Source: Chitinophagaceae bacterium 26-R-25
Lineage (GTDB): Bacteria; Bacteroidota; Bacteroidia; Chitinophagales; Chitinophagaceae
NCBI GenBank assembly: GCA_029906195.1
Contig: JARWSJ010000001.1
Span: 806,001 to 870,000, forward strand
DNA length: 64,000 bases
Direction of reading: 5' to 3'
Part shown: one piece after another, positions 14,696-26,941 of the stretch
Layout: each line of letters opens with the position of its first letter
How positions within the stretch are numbered: position 1 is the first letter of the stretch
The notes under the pieces: model-generated
What the model saw: the letters and a program-made list of their open reading frames with translations, nothing else
The model's database searches: none
What the model was told of the DNA's origin: nothing
Position numbers and translations under genes: made by a program

Positions 14696-17600
14696 ATGAG
14701 AAACTTATTACTACTCGCATTTTTGTCACTGTTATGCAACACTTTATCTGCACAGTATTACGGAATGGATAGCGTTACCTTCGGTAGTTCTAATATTAAA
14801 GCTTTGATTTACCCGGCGGCGGCAAAGAGGGTACCGGGAAGAAAGTATCCATTGATGATTCATTATGAAGGTTCGGACCAGGTAGGAACCGTACTTGCCT
14901 CGATGTTTGGCGCCGGTTTCCCAAGGCAGGTGATGAACAATAGAGTACAGGGCACGGTGGCAGATAGCATCATTCATGTTTGTCCCTTATCGACTTCCGT
15001 AGGCTCTTTAAAATTTCCTTCCATGTTTAACCAGGTGATGGATTATTGCCTAGCCAGTTTGCCTGTAGATACTGCGAAGAACGATCATGGACTGTACAAG
15101 CTTGTATGCGTTGACGGCATAGGGCAGGGCGCGAGCGACGCCTGGGATAACCTCGCCTGGTACACCACAGGCAATGGCGATTTAAAGTATATCGGAAAAA
15201 TAGGACATGCCGCTTTCATGTCCACTCCTAATTTATATCCGGCATCTGCAGCTTTTACCAATTATCAGTACACCAATACGAAATTCTTACATGAACAGAA
15301 TACAAATTCCTGTTGCCAATACGGCCCCGCACAAACCATGAGTGGCACACTTGCTAAAACAACAGGCGCCATCAGTACATTTACGATGTACACAATGCCC
15401 AACAATGGTTTTAACAACTTCACCTGGGATAGCATGTACTCTCCATTTGGCAGAGACACTGTCACAAATATTTACCGTTGGTTGTTGAATAGTGCATCGC
15501 CACCCTCACCAACACATTATTACGGAATGGACAGTGTAACATTTGGCAGCTCCAATATAAAAGCCTTGGTCTATCCCGCGGCGGCAAAGAGAATACCCGG
15601 CAAGTTGTATCCGCTGATGATTCACTATGAAGGCAGCGATCAGGTGGGAACAATGCTTGCGTCTGTGTTTGGCGCAGGTTTTCCAAGGCAGGTGATGAAC
15701 AACAAAATCCAGGGAACCGTTGCAGATAGTATCATTCATATTTGTCCGTTATCAATAAGTGTCGGCTCCTTGAAATATCCTTCCATGTTTAACCAGGTGA
15801 TGGATTATTGCCTTGCTAACCTACCTGTTGACTCAAGCAAGGATGGTCACGGAATGTATAAACTGGTTTCTGTAGACGGAATAGGACAGGGGGCCAGTGA
15901 TGCGTGGGACAATCTTGCATGGTACACAACAAACAACGGGGAGTTAAAGTATATCGGGAAAATAAGTCACGCAGCTTTTATGTCTGCTCCTAATTTGTAT
16001 CCTGCGCCAGAAGCTTTTGCTAATTACCAGTATACCAATACAAAATTTTTACACGAGCAAAACACAAACTCCTGCTGCCAGTATGGGCCCGCACAATCCA
16101 TGAGTAGTACTCTTGCGAAAACGACTGGCGCTATCAGCACGTTTACATTGTACACGATGGCAAACAATGGTTTTAACAATTTTACCTGGGACAGCATGTA
16201 TTCTCCTTTTGGTGGTGACACCGTTACAAATATTTACAGGTGGGTGCTCAATAGTGCTAAGGTTATAACACCACCAACTTTTACTCCTGTAAAACTAAAG
16301 GTCTATGAAAGCAGTTTGTATGATTTGTCTGGTCGCATCAATCATAAGGACAGGCCTTTTAATTTTTTTGATGGTTTTGAAACAATCGATCCCAAAAATG
16401 GGAACGTTGACTTTGAGGCACAAACTGTTTTGGATGAATTGGGAAAACCAAAGCTGGTGCGGGGTGACACGACAAATGCCATTCCAGGATCAGGAAGAGA
16501 CGGGGCTTATTTTTATGGAGCAAGCAATCGCTCTCTTGCTTTCGGTGGATATTATTTTCCAGGCAAAAGGGGAAGATGTATCATTGTTGATCTTGCCAAT
16601 GATCCTTCGATAAAACATGCATTGATAACACACGGCAAGAAATTTAACATCACAGATGTTTATGGATGGGAGAGAAATTTTGAGCAGGGTGATAGCCTGT
16701 ATTTCTACAACTTCGATAAAGTAATTGAAGAAGCCGATGTGCGAAAGATTCCTTACATGATCAGCAGGCCCGATAGCATGCTGAAACCCTTTGCCGTATT
16801 GGTTACGCAAGGTGGTACATCTTCTACGGGCATGTGGCGAAAAGTATCTGATATTGCTGACAGCATGCGATATATTATGATCCGCAACACGCTTCAGCAG
16901 CGAAGTGGTTATACTTCCACCGCTTATTTCAACGAAGTCGTTTTTTACGGATCCCCAAGAGGAGACAGCACTCAGAAGCCTGTTGGTTATTCCGGTCCGC
17001 TGCCGGTGCAGAAAACGTTGTTCGATAAATCCGGCGTCAATACTGGCGTACAGATAGATACGAATGTGATGAGTATCGTGAAGAATATTCGTCAGTATGT
17101 AAATGTAGATTGGTATGATACGGACACTGACCCTGCCACCAAATACAAACAGCTTTTCAATGCAGATTATTTTCCCGGTTACTTAAACTGGAATCTATAT
17201 TGGACACCGCATAATCATAATCATTGGCTCGCAGTTTTTGGAGCATCCAAGAGAGCAGGAAATGAAATGAAGCAAAGTGTAAGAAACAATATTGATACAC
17301 CTTATGCAGAGCCGGGAGACTGGCTGCATTATGTTTCGCACGGCAGGTTATTTTACCAGTTGGCATACAAGTGGGGTAACAACAAATCGCTCGATGGCAC
17401 TAAGTACAGGTGGTTCAACGATGCCACACTTTCCGGTTACGCACAAAACTGGCATCCATTTTTAGAATTAGGGAATGAAGATGATACTTATGAACCTCCA
17501 GCAGTTTCGGCTGCCAAGCTTATCATGGCCGTTAATGGAAACAACAAATACCTGGGTGATACACTGGGTATTCGAAATGCAGATCCGGGAACAAAAATCG

Positions 17601-18553
17601 TTTATGCGGGTCAGACATATCCGGATACTTTTCGTATTCGCACCGTAATGCTTCTTGCCTACACAATGATGAAAGATACCACCACCAAGCTTTTTGACGT
17701 GTTTAGTTATCATGATTACAGCAGACTGATCGATACTGTCTCAGGCATTGTTGGCCCCACTTATGAAGAACAAGTGGGGAACGGGGGCATGATACCTGAA
17801 CGAAATAATTGGTACAATGAGAGCAGTGACATTGCAAAATTCATCTGGAAAATAACAGGCGATACAAGCATCAAAACCTGGAACACTGAATACGGCTTTG
17901 ACAATTTTTCCGTTCGCCCGGGAACAACAGATCAACTCGGTGTAAACTGGACAACAACTGCAGTTCCACGCATTACAGGATATGATTCTGTAGAATCCAA
18001 AAGCATTGTAATGATGCGCATGGAACTTATCATGGGGGCAAGTCAACTTGATGGCTTTACAGAATTTAATGCGCACAATTCGAATCTTGATCCTACCAAC
18101 AACGTAAGCACCAATTTTTATACAACTGGTTGGGGTGGCGGAAATTATGGGTTGTCAACAAAGTTCACTAATTACTATGCAAAGAAGTGGATGTATGGGA
18201 GAATGGGAGACTATGCAGTTGACAGCGTTATAAGCAGCGACGGTACAGGGTTGTGGCTCATTAAGTGGCGCAAGCAATCTGATCGCGACTCCGTGATGTT
18301 TTCTATTTGGAAAGGAAGTGAGAATGCTACGAAATTAGATTATGAGGATGTAAAAATAGAAGGTGTCACTTCAGGAACCACAAAAGAAGTCTATAATTTC
18401 TCAACCAAAACTGCGGATGTAACACCAATCAAGAAGAACGATTCTTACACTTTCAGCGTAAAAGAAATGCCTGCGTTTATCTTCGCCAGAGAAGTTGCCG
18501 GTAATAAAGCACGAATAAGATTTAAGGATAAAAAGGATCATAAAGGAGATTAG
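14696..18553 (+). CDS. Giant secreted protein: two degenerate alpha/beta-hydrolase domains, beta domain and GH-A-like TIM barrel
   Basis: This 1285-residue protein starts with a signal peptide (MRNLLLLAFLSLLCNTLSAQ). Residues 21-267 and 275-521 are two copies of one domain with 254-residue periodicity. Its pattern (YPLMIHYEG, VMDYCLASLPVD, a GIGQG elbow, FNNFTWDSMYSP, NIYRWLLN) is that of the PHB-depolymerase-like esterase fold, but the nucleophile Ser is Gly143 and Gly397, and no His sits at the GHxxW position, so both copies look catalytically dead. A beta-rich region follows (about 533-770, perhaps a carbohydrate-binding sandwich). A TIM-barrel-like domain (about 785-1190) has LELGNEDD (Glu928) and WNTEYG (Glu1065), which fit acid/base and nucleophile of a clan GH-A glycosidase, plus FDVFSYHDY. 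The CAZy family is not recognised. No T9SS tail is seen. A shorter paralogue follows at once. Confidence 0.7.
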   Translation: MRNLLLLAFLSLLCNTLSAQYYGMDSVTFGSSNIKALIYPAAAKRVPGRKYPLMIHYEGSDQVGTVLASMFGAGFPRQVMNNRVQGTVADSIIHVCPLSTSVGSLKFPSMFNQVMDYCLASLPVDTAKNDHGLYKLVCVDGIGQGASDAWDNLAWYTTGNGDLKYIGKIGHAAFMSTPNLYPASAAFTNYQYTNTKFLHEQNTNSCCQYGPAQTMSGTLAKTTGAISTFTMYTMPNNGFNNFTWDSMYSPFGRDTVTNIYRWLLNSASPPSPTHYYGMDSVTFGSSNIKALVYPAAAKRIPGKLYPLMIHYEGSDQVGTMLASVFGAGFPRQVMNNKIQGTVADSIIHICPLSISVGSLKYPSMFNQVMDYCLANLPVDSSKDGHGMYKLVSVDGIGQGASDAWDNLAWYTTNNGELKYIGKISHAAFMSAPNLYPAPEAFANYQYTNTKFLHEQNTNSCCQYGPAQSMSSTLAKTTGAISTFTLYTMANNGFNNFTWDSMYSPFGGDTVTNIYRWVLNSAKVITPPTFTPVKLKVYESSLYDLSGRINHKDRPFNFFDGFETIDPKNGNVDFEAQTVLDELGKPKLVRGDTTNAIPGSGRDGAYFYGASNRSLAFGGYYFPGKRGRCIIVDLANDPSIKHALITHGKKFNITDVYGWERNFEQGDSLYFYNFDKVIEEADVRKIPYMISRPDSMLKPFAVLVTQGGTSSTGMWRKVSDIADSMRYIMIRNTLQQRSGYTSTAYFNEVVFYGSPRGDSTQKPVGYSGPLPVQKTLFDKSGVNTGVQIDTNVMSIVKNIRQYVNVDWYDTDTDPATKYKQLFNADYFPGYLNWNLYWTPHNHNHWLAVFGASKRAGNEMKQSVRNNIDTPYAEPGDWLHYVSHGRLFYQLAYKWGNNKSLDGTKYRWFNDATLSGYAQNWHPFLELGNEDDTYEPPAVSAAKLIMAVNGNNKYLGDTLGIRNADPGTKIVYAGQTYPDTFRIRTVMLLAYTMMKDTTTKLFDVFSYHDYSRLIDTVSGIVGPTYEEQVGNGGMIPERNNWYNESSDIAKFIWKITGDTSIKTWNTEYGFDNFSVRPGTTDQLGVNWTTTAVPRITGYDSVESKSIVMMRMELIMGASQLDGFTEFNAHNSNLDPTNNVSTNFYTTGWGGGNYGLSTKFTNYYAKKWMYGRMGDYAVDSVISSDGTGLWLIKWRKQSDRDSVMFSIWKGSENATKLDYEDVKIEGVTSGTTKEVYNFSTKTADVTPIKKNDSYTFSVKEMPAFIFAREVAGNKARIRFKDKKDHKGD

Positions 18554-18579
18554 AAACAGTGAGACAACAAGAGCATAAA

Positions 18580-18715
18580 GCCTTAGTGAAGCTTAGTGCT
18601 CTTAGTGTCTTAGTGGTAAACATTTCGAACTTCGAATTTTAAACCTTTAGCCTCAAAGTATGCAGACAGTTTTTTCAACACTAAGGCGCTAAGGACACTA
18701 AGTTTCACTAAGAAG
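18580..18715. repeat. CTTAGTG / CACTAAG inverted repeat
   Basis: CCTTAGTGAAGCTTAGTGCT with CTTAGTGTCTTAGTGG (18580-18616) is inverted as CACTAAGGCGCTAAGGACAC with TAAGTTTCACTAAG (18679-18713). A relative without the inverted partner lies at 36274-36312. Confidence 0.75.
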
Positions 18716-18718
18716 AAA

Positions 18719-18756
18719 TCAGTGCAAATCAGTCTAATCCGTGTTATCAGTGTGCT
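18719..18756. repeat. ATCAGTGCAAATCAGTCTAAT dispersed repeat, copy 1
   Basis: ATCAGTGCAAATCAGTCTAA, TCCGTGTTATCAGTGTGCT. Very similar words occur at 32349-32445. Confidence 0.6.
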
Positions 18757-18816
18757 AACTCTTCAAACAAATACTCATCCCTAATGGTTATTTTGTAAAT
18801 TGAAAAAATAGTTTGG

Positions 18817-21800
18817 ATGAGAAGATTATTATTGCTTGGTGTTTTAGTGTTATTCTGCAACACTTTATGGGCTCAGTATTATGGAATGGACAGCGTTACA
18901 ATTGGCGGGGCGCAAATCAAAGCGCTTATCTATCCCGCAGCAGAAAAAAGAATACCCGGAAAAAAGTGTGCGCTAATGATACACTATGGAGGCGCGGATC
19001 AGGTGGGCGACCAGCTCGCTTCATTGTTTGGTGCCGGCTTTCCGCGGCAGGTAATGAACGATCGTATCCAGGGAACGATTGCTGACAGCATCATACATGT
19101 TTGTCCGCTGGCAACATCAACCGGCGCTTTAAAATATCCTTCCATGTTCAACCAGGTGATGGATTATTGCCTCGAAAATTTACCCATCGATGAGGTTAAG
19201 AATGAAGATGGTACTTACAAGTATGTTTGTATAGACGGCATAGGGCAAGGAGCCAGTGATGCATGGGATAACCTTGCATGGTACACAGGTGGGCATGGTG
19301 AATTAAAATACAGAGGTAAGATCAGTCACGCTATTTTTATTTCCATTTCTAATTTGTATCCCGGTCCACAGGCATTTGCCAACTACAAGCACACAAATAC
19401 CAAATTTTTTCACGAACAGCATACCGATAAATGTTGCCAGTATGAACCTGCACAGGCAATGAGCAATAAGCTTGCTGAGGTGGCGGGCAATAGCACTTTT
19501 ATCATGTACAGCATGGCTAACAACGGCTTCAACAATATTACATGGGATAGTGTGTTTTCGCCACTTGGCAGCGATACTGTCACAAATATTTACAGGTGGC
19601 TGCTGAATCGCAATGGAGCAAGGCCGCAATCCGCAGCTCTTTCTGCAAAGATCAAAGTATATGAAAGCAGCTTGTATGATCTTTCGGGTCGCATTAATCA
19701 CAAAGACAGGCCCTTCAATTATTTCGACGGGTTTGAAACCGTTGATCCCAAAAATGGTGACCAGAAATTCAAGGCGCAGAAAGTGTTGGATGAGCTTGGA
19801 AAGCCAAAGATGGTAAGGGGCGATACAACAACCCCTGTTCCTGCATCCGGCAGAGATGCAAGCTATTTTTATGGCGCTGACAATGGAGACCTGGCGTTTG
19901 GCGGATATTATTTTCCGGGAAAAAGAGGACGGTGTATTGTTGTCGATCTTGCGAATGATCCTTTGATAAAACATGCTTTGACAACACACGGAAAGAAATT
20001 CAATATAACAGATGTTTATGGTTTTGAGAAAAATTTCGAACCCGGTGATAGTTTGTATTTCTACAATTTTGATAAAGTAATAGAAGAGTCCGATGTAAGA
20101 AAGATTCCTTACATGATCAGCAGGCCGGATAGTATGTTGCAACCTTTTGCTGTTTTGGTAACGCGGGGTGGTACTTCTGCAAAAGGTGCATGGATAAATG
20201 TTTCAAACATTACAGACAGCATGCGGTATATAATGATTCGCAACACCCTTCAAAAAAGAAACGGCTATATTTCTACAGCCTATATCAATGAGCTTGTTTT
20301 TTATGGAACACCAAGAAATGAAAAAACGAGTGAACCGACAGATTATAAAGGGCCGTTGCCTGCACAAAAAACGTTGTTTGAGAAGGCTGGCATCAATACG
20401 GGCGTTCAAATAGATACAAATGTTTTAGGCATCGTAAAAAATATCCGTCAATATGTAAATGTTGACTGGTACGACACTGACACAAATGCCACTACGAAGA
20501 ACCGTCAGCTTTTTAATGCGGATTACTTTCCCGGTTATTTGAAATGGAACCAATACTGGACGCCACATGGTTACAATCACTGGCTGGCTGTATTTGGCGC
20601 ATCCAAAAGAGCTGGAAAGGAGATGGGCAAAAGCGTAAGAAACAACATCGACAAGCCATACGCAGAGCCCGGCGATTGGTTGAATTATATTTCACATGGC
20701 AGATTATTTTACCAGCTCGCCTATAAGTGGGGTAACAATAAAAAACTAAACGGTTCAAAATACAGATGGTTCAATGATAAAACGCTTTCCGGTTATGCAC
20801 AGAACTGGCATCAATACATAGAACTTGGAAATGAAGATGATACTTACGAACCGCCCGCTGTATCTGCTGCCAAGCTTGTGATGGCAGTGAATGGCAACAA
20901 TAAATATTTGGGCGATACGCTTGGTATTCGCAATGCAGATCCCCGAACGAAGATCATTTATGCAGGACAAACCTATGCCGATACCTTCCGTATACGAACG
21001 GTGATGTTGCTTTCGTACATTATGATGAAAGACACCACTACAAAGCTTTTCGATGTGTTTAGTTATCACGATTATAGCAGGTCACTAGATACCGCGTCAA
21101 ACATACTTGGTCCTACTTACGAAGAGCAAATTGGAAATAGCGGAATGGTTCCTGAGAAAAATAACTGGTACGACAAATGCAGTGCCATCGCAAAATACAT
21201 TTGGAAAATTACGGGTGACACCAGCATCAAAACATGGAACACGGAATATGGATATGACAACTTTTCTGTGCGCTCAAAATCAACCAAACAACTGGCCGGC
21301 GTCTGGACAACAACCGCGGTGCCAGTTATCAAAGGCTATGATTCGGTTCAGTCAAAAAGTATTGCGATCATGCGCATGGATCTGATCATGGGTGCAAGTG
21401 AACTCGATGGCTTTACAGAATATAATGCGCACAATGCCAATCTCGATCAGACGAATAATATAAGTGTTAATTTTTACACCGCGGGTTGGGGCGGAGGCAA
21501 TTATGGTTTGTCAACAAAATTTCCCAACTACTATGCAAAGAAATGGATGTATGGGAGGATGGGTGGTTATGCCGTGGATACCGTCATAAGCAGTGACGGC
21601 ACAGGACTTTGGCTCATCAAATGGAGGAAGCAAAATGATAAGGATTCTGTCATGTACTCCGTTTGGAAAGGCAGCGATGACGGTGGCACATTGCATAAAA
21701 ATCTGAAAATTGACATCCGGCAAAACGCAACAAAAGAAGTGTATAATTTCACGAAACAAACGGCAGACGTAACGCCGCTAACAGAAAGAGAAATGAAAAA

Positions 21801-21888
21801 CTTCACAGTGACGGAAATGCCCGTTTTCATTTTTACAAAAGAAAGTCGGAGAGTGAACCCGGTTGTTAGTTATCGTAAGAAGAATTAA
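18817..21888 (+). CDS. Giant secreted protein, paralogue with one degenerate alpha/beta-hydrolase domain and a GH-A-like TIM barrel
   Basis: A 1023-residue paralogue of the preceding protein, similar along its whole length but lacking one of the two N-terminal domain copies. The signal peptide is MRRLLLLGVLVLFCNTLWAQ. The single hydrolase-like domain (about 21-265) again has GIGQG with Gly143 in place of the nucleophile Ser and FNNITWDS without the His. The beta domain follows from KIKVYESSLYDLSG, and the barrel carries LGNEDD (Glu673) and WNTEYG (Glu810), with the same 137-residue spacing as in the first protein. The predicted place is periplasm or cell surface and the predicted role glycoside hydrolysis; the substrate is unknown. 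Its last codon and stop (AATTAA) sit inside an AATTAAGAATT repeat. Confidence 0.7.
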   Translation: MRRLLLLGVLVLFCNTLWAQYYGMDSVTIGGAQIKALIYPAAEKRIPGKKCALMIHYGGADQVGDQLASLFGAGFPRQVMNDRIQGTIADSIIHVCPLATSTGALKYPSMFNQVMDYCLENLPIDEVKNEDGTYKYVCIDGIGQGASDAWDNLAWYTGGHGELKYRGKISHAIFISISNLYPGPQAFANYKHTNTKFFHEQHTDKCCQYEPAQAMSNKLAEVAGNSTFIMYSMANNGFNNITWDSVFSPLGSDTVTNIYRWLLNRNGARPQSAALSAKIKVYESSLYDLSGRINHKDRPFNYFDGFETVDPKNGDQKFKAQKVLDELGKPKMVRGDTTTPVPASGRDASYFYGADNGDLAFGGYYFPGKRGRCIVVDLANDPLIKHALTTHGKKFNITDVYGFEKNFEPGDSLYFYNFDKVIEESDVRKIPYMISRPDSMLQPFAVLVTRGGTSAKGAWINVSNITDSMRYIMIRNTLQKRNGYISTAYINELVFYGTPRNEKTSEPTDYKGPLPAQKTLFEKAGINTGVQIDTNVLGIVKNIRQYVNVDWYDTDTNATTKNRQLFNADYFPGYLKWNQYWTPHGYNHWLAVFGASKRAGKEMGKSVRNNIDKPYAEPGDWLNYISHGRLFYQLAYKWGNNKKLNGSKYRWFNDKTLSGYAQNWHQYIELGNEDDTYEPPAVSAAKLVMAVNGNNKYLGDTLGIRNADPRTKIIYAGQTYADTFRIRTVMLLSYIMMKDTTTKLFDVFSYHDYSRSLDTASNILGPTYEEQIGNSGMVPEKNNWYDKCSAIAKYIWKITGDTSIKTWNTEYGYDNFSVRSKSTKQLAGVWTTTAVPVIKGYDSVQSKSIAIMRMDLIMGASELDGFTEYNAHNANLDQTNNISVNFYTAGWGGGNYGLSTKFPNYYAKKWMYGRMGGYAVDTVISSDGTGLWLIKWRKQNDKDSVMYSVWKGSDDGGTLHKNLKIDIRQNATKEVYNFTKQTADVTPLTEREMKNFTVTEMPVFIFTKESRRVNPVVSYRKKN

Positions 21889-24452: not shown

Positions 24453-24580
24453 AGAGTCTTTTGATTTTCAAAGCAGCCGAATATATAAACAGGGTCAATA
24501 TTGAAAACGGCTGCGATGGTTATAAGCAAAGTTGTCGATTATTCGTATTTTAAGCATCTAATCAACAACCATTGCTGCGC

Positions 24581-26941
24581 ATGAAAAAAACACTCACCTC
24601 AATTATTCTATCTTTTTCTTTATTACTTACACAAGCACAGAATGCAGATTTGACGCATCTTCCCGGTAATTGGAAAGCTTCGTGGATCAGTTGTCCCAAT
24701 ATTGATCAGCGAGGATATGGAGTGTATCATTTCCGTAAAATATTAAAACTCGCAGATAAACCTGCAAACTACATAGTGCATGTAAGCGCAGACAATCGCT
24801 ATCGTTTATTTGTGAATGGAAAATCAGTTTGCGCTGGTCCTGCCCGCGGCGATTTGTATAACTGGAATTTTGAAACGATTGATCTGGCCCCTTATCTGCG
24901 GGCGGGGAACAACATCATTGCTGCATTGGTTTGGAACATGGGCGAATTCGCTGCTGTGGCGCAGGTTTCCAATCAAACAGGATTTCTGTTACAAAGCTCT
25001 AATGACAAAAACGACGATATCAATACCAACAAGTCGTGGAAAGTTTACAAAGATTCTGCGTTTACCCCATGCTCTACAGACAATGGTGAAAGACTCAGAA
25101 CATACATGGTTATTGGCCCCGGCGACAGCGTGAATGCAGCTGCTTATCCGTGGCAATGGGAAACGTTGGACTACAATGATAGCAATTGGTCGAATGCCCG
25201 TGAAGTAACAAATGCGGTAATGGTTGGCTATGGGTCAGACAACTTATGGTCGCTGTCTCCACGCACCATTCCGCTAATGGAAGAAACGCCGCAAAGGATG
25301 CAGGTGATAAGAAGAACAAAAGGCATACAGCCCGATCCTGCATTTCTAAAAGGAGAATCTCCCCTCGAAATTCCTGCACACAGCAAGGTTAGTATTTTGC
25401 TCGATCAGCAATACAATTCCGTATGTTATCCGGAATTGATGGTGAACAATGGTAAGAACGCCCAAATAAAACTAACCTATGCCGAAGCTTTGTTTGATAA
25501 GGAAATGCACAAAGGCAATCGCAATGAAATAGATGGAAAAGAAATAGTCGGGAACTATGATGTGTTTATTGCAGATGGAGGCAAACGCTTATTTCGTCCG
25601 TTGTGGCAACGCACGTACCGGTATTTACAATTGGATATAGAAACAAAAGATGCACCTTTAACGATTGTTGATTTGCGCGGCATGGCCAACGGATATCCAT
25701 TTAAAGAAAACGCGTCATTCGACTGCAGTGATTCTTCACTCAAAAATATTTGGAACGTTGGTTGGCGAACCGCGAGATTGTGTGCCGGCGAAACTTATTT
25801 TGATTGCCCCTACTATGAGCAACTGCAATACGAAGCAGACACTCGCATTCAGGCCTTGATTTCATTGTATGTTTCAGGAGATGATCGTTTGATGCGTAAA
25901 GCCATTCATGACTTTTATATTTCCCGTGTGCCGGAAGGTTTAACGCAAGGACGCTATCCAAGCAGTCGCATACAAGTGATCCCAACATTTTCATTGTACT
26001 GGATATCCATGCTGTATGATTACTGGATGTACAGAAATGACACCACTTTTGTAAAACAATATTTGTCTGCAGTAAGAGGCGTGCTCGATTGGTACGAAGC
26101 TAAAATTGATGAGAAGAAAAATATGCTGGGGCCAATGCGCTGGTGGAACTTTGAAGACTGGAACAATTCATTTCCCGGCGGCGTTCCTGATGGTGCAAAT
26201 GATGGCAACTCATCGTTGGTTACTTTGCACTATGTCTACACTTTGCAACAAGCGGCAGCACTATTTAATTTTTTCGGTAAAACAAATGAAGCTGCACAAT
26301 ACACTGCATTGGCAACACGTCTTTCAAATGCCACGTACAAGTTATGTTTTGACGGCAAAAGAAATGTAATGGCCAATACGCCAGAGATGAAAACATTCAG
26401 TCAGCATGCAAGCATCATGGGAGTATTATCCGGCGCAATACCTTCGTCACAACAAAAAGCAGTGATGCAAAAAGTACTGACTGATGAGAGTCTTAGCCAG
26501 GCAACTTTCTTCTACAGATTTTATTTGAACCAGGCATTGAAGAAAGCCGGCATGGGTGATGCTTACTATTCTCAACTTACACCCTGGCGAAATATGTTGG
26601 CTATGGGATTAACCACTTTCGCCGAAAATCCTGATCCCACAAGATCAGATTGTCATGCGTGGAGTGCAAGCCCCAACTATGATTTTCTTGCAACCATCTG
26701 CGGCATTGAACCTGCAAGCTTTGGTTTTGCAAAAGTGAAAATAGAACCGCATCTTGGCGAACTGCAATGGGCGAATGGCGTGTTGCCGCATCCAAAAGGT
26801 AATCTGTCTGTTTCGTTAAAGAGAAAAGGAGCGAACGGTATTGATGCAGCTATTGATTTGCCAAAAGGCGTAACTGGCGATTTTATCTGGAACGGGAAAA
26901 CTGTAAAACTTAAGGAAGGCAGGAATACTGTTGTGTTATGA
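24581..26941 (+). CDS. Secreted GH78 alpha-L-rhamnosidase
   Basis: A 786-residue protein with a signal peptide (MKKTLTSIILSFSLLLTQAQ). The N-terminal beta-sandwich region has WKASWISCPN and YRLFVNGKSVCAGPARGD as in the Bac_rhamnosid N domain. The six-hairpin (alpha/alpha) barrel begins near residue 380 with WNVGWRTARLCAGETYFDCP, and the following YYEQLQYEADTRIQ (Asp408 onward) is the region of the catalytic carboxylates in GH78. A small C-terminal beta domain ends the protein (GFAKVKIEPHLG). It should release terminal alpha-L-rhamnose from glycans or glycosides in the periplasm or outside. ATG at 24581 is chosen over TTG at 24572. It is not in a SusCD cluster here. Confidence 0.85.
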   Translation: MKKTLTSIILSFSLLLTQAQNADLTHLPGNWKASWISCPNIDQRGYGVYHFRKILKLADKPANYIVHVSADNRYRLFVNGKSVCAGPARGDLYNWNFETIDLAPYLRAGNNIIAALVWNMGEFAAVAQVSNQTGFLLQSSNDKNDDINTNKSWKVYKDSAFTPCSTDNGERLRTYMVIGPGDSVNAAAYPWQWETLDYNDSNWSNAREVTNAVMVGYGSDNLWSLSPRTIPLMEETPQRMQVIRRTKGIQPDPAFLKGESPLEIPAHSKVSILLDQQYNSVCYPELMVNNGKNAQIKLTYAEALFDKEMHKGNRNEIDGKEIVGNYDVFIADGGKRLFRPLWQRTYRYLQLDIETKDAPLTIVDLRGMANGYPFKENASFDCSDSSLKNIWNVGWRTARLCAGETYFDCPYYEQLQYEADTRIQALISLYVSGDDRLMRKAIHDFYISRVPEGLTQGRYPSSRIQVIPTFSLYWISMLYDYWMYRNDTTFVKQYLSAVRGVLDWYEAKIDEKKNMLGPMRWWNFEDWNNSFPGGVPDGANDGNSSLVTLHYVYTLQQAAALFNFFGKTNEAAQYTALATRLSNATYKLCFDGKRNVMANTPEMKTFSQHASIMGVLSGAIPSSQQKAVMQKVLTDESLSQATFFYRFYLNQALKKAGMGDAYYSQLTPWRNMLAMGLTTFAENPDPTRSDCHAWSASPNYDFLATICGIEPASFGFAKVKIEPHLGELQWANGVLPHPKGNLSVSLKRKGANGIDAAIDLPKGVTGDFIWNGKTVKLKEGRNTVVL

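Follow-up and report, generated by a model that had tools for sequence, protein, structure and literature searches.

Two adjacent genes in a 64,000-nucleotide stretch of the soil-dwelling Chitinophagaceae bacterium 26-R-25 (assembly GCA_029906195.1, contig JARWSJ010000001.1, positions 806,001 to 870,000 of the forward strand; hereafter the window, whose own numbering is used for positions) encode large proteins that join esterase-like domains to a barrel of the glycoside hydrolase (GH) clan GH-A type. We regard the pair as a Pinibacter variant of a widespread, unnamed GH-A family and favour, with moderate confidence, the explanation that both proteins are secreted, PslG-like glycan hydrolases of an envelope polymer, in which dead esterase-like domains and a discoidin-like domain would serve as binding modules. 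A preliminary description of this DNA had placed the two genes, for 1285 and 1023 residues, at the coordinates listed in Table 1, where we also find them as open reading frames. It had further offered them as its best candidate for an undescribed system. Most of its interpretation stands, but the pair is not supported as an isolated system of that kind: the barrel belongs to a widespread family nearest to GH39, and two phage contigs encode proteins of similar domain order.

With a 12-row profile, relatives of the barrel were found in 53 of 294 Chitinophagaceae genomes; a 32-row profile found them, within the class, in 26 of 395 genomes, and the single protein, within the phylum, in 9 of 395, the window genome being counted in each case. 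By these matches the barrel is a member of a widespread Bacteroidota family, for which we found no Pfam or NCBIfam model. For the window proteins themselves, no Pfam family matched either one at E up to 10, NCBIfam returned two matches far under the cut-offs for the first protein (E 0.026 and 1.3) and none for the second, and a single-sequence search of the PDB with the second protein gave no match. The family is diverse, 29 of 32 aligned barrels being only 19-26% identical to the window barrel; E673, E810 and Arg544 are invariant in all 32, and Asn672, His751 and Tyr753 are conserved in at least 90%. An arginine, a histidine and a tyrosine are conserved in clan GH-A. The spacing of 137 residues between two glutamates, reported earlier for both proteins, was confirmed (E928 and E1065 in the first protein, E673 and E810 in the second); the first of the two follows an asparagine, and both are placed as in a GH-A family.

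The closest named family was sought by profile comparison. Against 11 Chitinophagaceae GH39 sequences, in a comparison redone without one mis-trimmed row of 22 residues (L138), the barrel profile aligned over 281 columns with a probability score (Prob) of 92.8 and P 4e-7, E673 and E810 falling on the NE and TE of GH39; one reversed and five shuffled control profiles gave Prob 0.5 or less. A GH42 profile of three sequences also matched the barrel (89 columns, Prob 90), as is expected because GH42 lies within clan GH-A, and individual relatives showed sub-threshold Pfam matches to GH42, GH5 and GH39. Searched against the PDB, a 38-row barrel profile found GH39wh2 of Bacteroides cellulosilyticus (PDB 5jvk) at E 7e-6 and PslG of Pseudomonas aeruginosa at E 1e-4, and the 32-row profile found them at E 8e-6 and 2e-4; both proteins are assigned to GH39 in the cited passages (PMC6933502; PMC11912335). 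A full-length structure prediction (7 rows) reached a predicted local distance difference test score (pLDDT) of 32 and was set aside. The barrel-only model (9 rows) reached pLDDT 50 with its first strands not formed and was taken as weak support only; its 18 Foldseek matches at E <=0.001 were arabinofuranosidases (GH51), GH44 enzymes and PslG. With both glutamates on GH39 catalytic positions, the clan GH-A type proposed in the preliminary description is well supported at the level of sequence; a (beta/alpha)8 fold with the glutamates at strands 4 and 7 would be expected. Among GH-A families the barrel appears closest, at a distance, to GH39, and its glutamates would correspond to the GH39 catalytic pair.

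The esterase-like domain was examined for its catalytic triad in an alignment of 26 such domains. In the 10 fused Pinibacter copies (Pinibacter here comprises the window genome together with P. aurantiacus and P. soli), the position of the nucleophile serine is occupied by glycine in nine and alanine in one, the histidine position by phenylalanine in nine and tyrosine in one, hence an aromatic residue throughout, and the aspartate column is a gap in all ten, so that none of them has the Ser-His-Asp triad of alpha/beta-hydrolase esterases. The aspartate was scored within Pinibacter only, as the loop aligns unreliably elsewhere. Ser, Asp and His are all retained in the four free-standing Pinibacter copies (three genomes), which were chosen by the letters SQGA and are the sole four such matches of the esterase search in the 294 genomes; the window genome carries two free-standing esterase relatives (L007 and L008), besides one free-standing barrel (L009, open frame of 696 residues). 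Ser and His are retained in both phage fusions described below (L082 and L101). The remaining 10 esterases of the alignment all keep the histidine, the only informative position in this group, as they were chosen by a GxSxG-type motif and the serine is present by construction.

Between the window genes and their orthologues in P. aurantiacus (L001) and P. soli (L002), the ratio of nonsynonymous to synonymous substitution rates (dN/dS) lay at 0.03-0.10 in the dead domains, 0.03-0.06 in the middle domain and 0.01-0.05 in the barrel, with dS of up to 1.7 in the L002 pairs and saturation in pairs with L003, an additional P. soli copy. Because the triad is lost while dN/dS stays at 0.03-0.10, we read the esterase-like domain as non-catalytic yet maintained by purifying selection, that is, as a kept pseudoenzyme; the earlier description of the domain as dead is supported. 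The copy in the second protein is 31-38% identical to the free-standing, triad-bearing Pinibacter relatives, and the domain is judged by this similarity to share descent with active-type alpha/beta-hydrolase esterases. Close copies of the dead domain were confined to the three Pinibacter genomes among the 294 searched, and 22 further Chitinophagaceae genomes gave distant esterase matches only (E 1e-11 or weaker). Four of seven distant-match proteins scanned pass the Abhydrolase_2 or Esterase cut-off. These enzymes, some of which carry PKD domains, are distant relatives of the window domains but keep GxSxG and His, whereas the window domains lack them and match no Pfam model. The esterase profile had no match below E 0.6 in the PDB.

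The domain between esterase and barrel is common to much of the barrel family (35 rows aligned) and is probably discoidin-like, judging from its profile resemblance to 15 F5/8 type C (discoidin) sequences (Prob 78, P 2e-5; controls 0.4 or less). It differs from that family in having no Pfam match to PF00754 at E 10 and no PDB profile match below E 0.4. A 716-residue open frame in another genome (G033:C1:3937202-3938407), with F5/8 type C above and GH39 below cut-off, resembles the core of the barrel family, although G033 is absent from the matches of the barrel profiles.

The layout of the two proteins is given in Table 1; domain edges, signal peptides and most names of neighbouring genes were assigned by eye. 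The preliminary order of signal peptide, esterase-like, beta-rich and barrel domains stands, except that the 1285-residue protein has two esterase-like domains, one of which had been missed. Both N-termini read like Sec signal peptides. The genes share a strand and are separated by 263 bases. Between the two proteins, barrels are 79% and middle domains 81% identical; the tandem esterase-like domains of the first protein share 87% identity, and with the single copy of the second protein each shares 72%. Since the tandem domains resemble each other more closely than the second-protein copy, the internal duplication would be younger than the gene duplication, unless conversion homogenised the copies. 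The nearest relatives found for the second gene are in P. aurantiacus (94% identical) and P. soli (85%), which makes the window genome a Pinibacter or a very close relative. Both species also have the tandem pair, which is therefore not a chance arrangement; the additional P. soli copy (L003), located elsewhere, is 65% identical. Searches with the second protein found no relatives in plasmid records or, as a single-protein scan, in viral contigs. Promoter-like sites (25 against 19.1 expected), terminator-like sites (16 against 6.5) and Bacteroidota-type promoter patterns (4 against 3.0) were counted, and nothing was concluded from any of them.

Table 1. Features of the gene pair (window positions; residue ranges approximate)
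Feature	Position	Strand	Description
First gene	14696..18553	+	1285 residues: signal peptide (by eye), two dead esterase-like domains, beta-rich middle domain, GH-A-type barrel
Dead esterase-like domain 1, first gene	14753..15502	+	~residues 20-269; Ser position = Gly143
Dead esterase-like domain 2, first gene	15521..16285	+	~residues 276-530; Ser position = Gly397
Beta-rich, probably discoidin-like domain, first gene	16304..16990	+	~residues 537-765; by homology to second-gene copy
GH-A-type barrel and C-terminal strands, first gene	17033..18490	+	~residues 780-1265; E928 = 17477-17479, E1065 = 17888-17890
Second gene	18817..21888	+	1023 residues: signal peptide (by eye), one dead esterase-like domain, beta-rich middle domain, GH-A-type barrel
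Dead esterase-like domain, second gene	18874..19614	+	~residues 20-266; Ser position = Gly143
Beta-rich, probably discoidin-like domain, second gene	19648..20331	+	~residues 278-505; copy used in alignment
GH-A-type barrel and C-terminal strands, second gene	20374..21846	+	~residues 520-1010; E673 = 20833-20835, E810 = 21244-21246

The known protein to which the pair was most readily compared is the exopolysaccharide hydrolase PslG, which is linked to the barrel by the profile matches given above. E810 aligned on the glutamate of the PslG motif STEWG, which is presumably the nucleophile Glu276. Several bacterial homologues of the barrel also sit among exopolysaccharide genes. PslG differs in that the cited passages give it a barrel and a beta-sandwich only, with neither an esterase-like nor a discoidin-like domain (PMC6933502), and in a glutamate spacing of 111 (165/276; PMC11912335) against 137 in the window proteins, which the Pfam GH39 model does not find. 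GH39wh2, the best PDB profile match, has a beta-sandwich before and after the barrel in the cited part of its description (PMC6933502), which we count as a likeness; it has no esterase-like domain, and the match is confined to the C-terminal strands and the second half of the barrel. A precedent for an esterase domain serving as a glycan-binding module is CtCE2 of CtCel5C-CE2, described in the cited passage as an esterase domain on a glycoside hydrolase that also binds cellulose (PMC2661963). CtCE2 belongs to another family and keeps its catalytic Ser-His and its activity, whereas the window domains are without Ser, His and Asp. Among the open-access papers searched, none was found that describes this architecture, judging by title and start of abstract.

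Gene neighbourhoods were compared at hand-picked loci; of 20 fetched, 18 were kept, leaving aside L086, which duplicates L085, and L101, which is from a phage. The 102 neighbours of these 18 bacterial barrel loci included Glycos_transf_2 (4), Bac_transf (3), Polysacc_synt_3 (3), Glycos_transf_1 (3), Epimerase (3) and Response_reg (5), against at most one member of each sugar-polymer family among 105 control proteins in 18 hand-placed regions of the same 17 genomes. By eye, seven of the 18 loci (L085, L089, L090, L091, L095, L096 and L097) lie among exopolysaccharide genes. As to activity, mechanism, binding role, secretion and the identity of the polymer, we infer that the barrel would be a catalytically competent clan GH-A enzyme, distant from GH39 and most like PslG, working by a retaining mechanism in which E673/E928 would be the acid/base and E810/E1065 the nucleophile. 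Neither the discoidin-like domain nor the dead esterase domains, one or two in number, would be catalytic; they would anchor the enzyme on the polymer that it cuts. This polymer is probably an exopolysaccharide or capsule of bacteria, carrying O-acetyl groups or other decorations.

A number of results weigh against this explanation. With the first, 12-row profile the matches to PslG and 5jvk were no better than E 0.07-0.08, the best single PslG domain had an i-E-value of 0.03-0.1 with the 38-row and 32-row profiles, and none of the barrels scanned reaches the Pfam GH39 cut-off; PF01229, used as a proxy for GH39, matched neither window protein at E 10 and one of 20 other barrel proteins (L034), at 19.1 against 26 bits. 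The structure models are poor (pLDDT 32 and 50), the Foldseek template modelling (TM) scores of the barrel-only model are 0.24-0.38, and some of its matches beyond E 0.001 are barrels that do not belong to GH-A. In every ortholog pair the barrel is more slowly evolving than the dead domain. Finally, 11 of the 18 bacterial loci are not among exopolysaccharide genes, L087 lies by eye amid SusD-, GH43- and GH16-like genes, and the window pair itself has no exopolysaccharide-gene neighbours: upstream of it are a DUF1508 gene and an AraC-type regulator.

The surroundings of L087 and of the window bear on the main alternative, in which the proteins are nutritional hydrolases of a plant, fungal or other foreign glycan bound by the dead esterase domains. 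A rhamnosidase-like protein (Bac_rhamnosid6H, E 6e-30) is encoded 2.7 kb downstream of the pair (24572-26941), and GH53 occurs in 2 of the 102 neighbours, by eye beside L085, a barrel of the window genome itself, both of which would suit such a role. We consider it unlikely nonetheless, if the strongest of the competitors, since we noticed no SusC/SusD genes next to the two window genes and since the homologues in phages, and those beside flippases and glycosyltransferases, point to a polymer of the bacterial envelope.

A second alternative leaves the GH-A enzyme as it is and takes the dead esterase domains for a spacer or a protein-protein or folding module that binds no glycan. The loss of all three triad residues would fit, and repeated units ahead of an enzyme may serve as spacers, but dN/dS of 0.03-0.10 indicates purifying selection beyond what we would expect for a mere spacer, and the aromatic residue at the histidine position in all 10 fused copies could stack on sugars. 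A purely structural role is accordingly the more doubtful of these two alternatives and, in our estimate, improbable.

Similar fusions occur in phages. Scanning viral contigs with barrel profiles identified two, one of them L082 (52.8 kb). There a 1015-residue protein has a signal-peptide-like start and an esterase-like domain (GLSQG and His), followed by one PKD domain, the middle domain and the barrel; its surroundings include PHROG endolysin and DNA polymerase exonuclease families and a weak tail protein match (E 0.007), and no head genes were seen. L101, found in the genome search, encodes a 1362-residue protein with an esterase (GLSQG, GGHSG), two PKD domains, the middle domain and the barrel. 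Genes for terminase, portal, virion protein, tape measure and collar fibre precede the L101 gene and a GH19 gene follows it, and from these neighbours we assign it to a phage or prophage tail module, the setting of a phage tail depolymerase. The L101 esterase is supported by a BLAST match of 36% (E 2e-30) to a PKD-linked bacterial esterase and by an Abhydrolase_2 score of 22.9 against a cut-off of 23 bits, that of L082, more weakly, by a relative that BLAST matched at 25% (E 2e-5) and by its motifs. Since the rows of L082, L101 and Pinibacter went into the esterase profile, their own matches to it arise by construction; a profile from Pinibacter alone finds neither phage esterase. Nine of 66 distinct barrel genes examined bear an esterase-like domain, seven in Pinibacter and two in phages, a count that covers matches reported with a locus and could miss front esterases where the locus boundary truncates a long open reading frame.

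In a tree of 62 barrels, from which duplicate loci and rows under 350 profile columns had been removed, the Pinibacter barrels join L100, which is bacterial and esterase-free (support 100/99), and L082 and L101 group elsewhere, with L010 and L037 (95/92); the program warned of long branches in this tree for L082, L101 and others. In a quick tree of 24 rows, L101 stays with L010 and L037 and L082 stands alone; an approximately unbiased (AU) test on it rejected a single clade of the fused proteins (p 0.006), the tested group having been named after the first tree was seen and L082 and L101 having long branches. Among the sequences compared, the nearest esterase relatives also differ, being a PKD-linked bacterial esterase for L101, other proteins for L082 and the free-standing Pinibacter copies for the second window protein. 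Esterase and barrel were thus likely joined on at least two separate occasions, probably three, and phages seem to have built a similar chimera separately from Pinibacter. Tentatively, these joinings to the same unnamed GH-A barrel could have yielded depolymerases of Bacteroidota phages, which would deacetylate and cut host slime, and in Pinibacter a secreted enzyme whose esterase was later turned into a dedicated binding module, with a duplication in one of the genes; this fuller history is possible rather than probable. That the window pair is instead a prophage remnant, a phage depolymerase gene captured by Pinibacter, is very improbable: the domain order is like that of L101 and L082, but the Pinibacter barrels join L100, a joint clade with the phage fusions is rejected, the Pinibacter esterase profile misses the phage esterases, and no phage genes were noticed among the open reading frames read around the pair.

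Further observations concern these loci. L079:2518-4113, on a 72.7-kb viral contig, encodes a barrel alone (531 residues) outside any tail module seen, flanked by polymerase exonuclease-like and thymidylate synthase-like genes. L083:5524-7410, from a 636-kb phage (LR756504.1) whose record is unannotated, encodes middle domain and barrel without an esterase (628 residues). Sec-signal-like starts were seen by eye on consecutive phage proteins in or near tail modules (L084:2288-4915, L084:4912-5991, L082:2186-5233, L101:2460-5429 and L101:5439-9524), which is odd for virion proteins. The nearest esterase-free relative, L100:6905-10558, has the middle domain, the barrel, four PKD matches and a secretion-system sorting tail, and adjoins genes that by eye appear to encode RNA polymerase subunits.

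In summary, the pair leads to a glycosidase family without a Pfam or NCBIfam model found, common in Bacteroidota and present in phages, whose catalytic residues are clearly predicted. Its esterase-like domains offer a clean case of an enzyme domain that selection maintains despite the loss of its catalytic residues, and that can be compared with intact sister copies of the same genome, and the apparently separate, similar chimera of the phages is the unexpected element. Should the tentative history of repeated joining be true, Bacteroidota and their phages would share a new GH family of envelope-polymer hydrolases, defined by these barrels, and the dead domains would be a new, esterase-derived carbohydrate-binding module.

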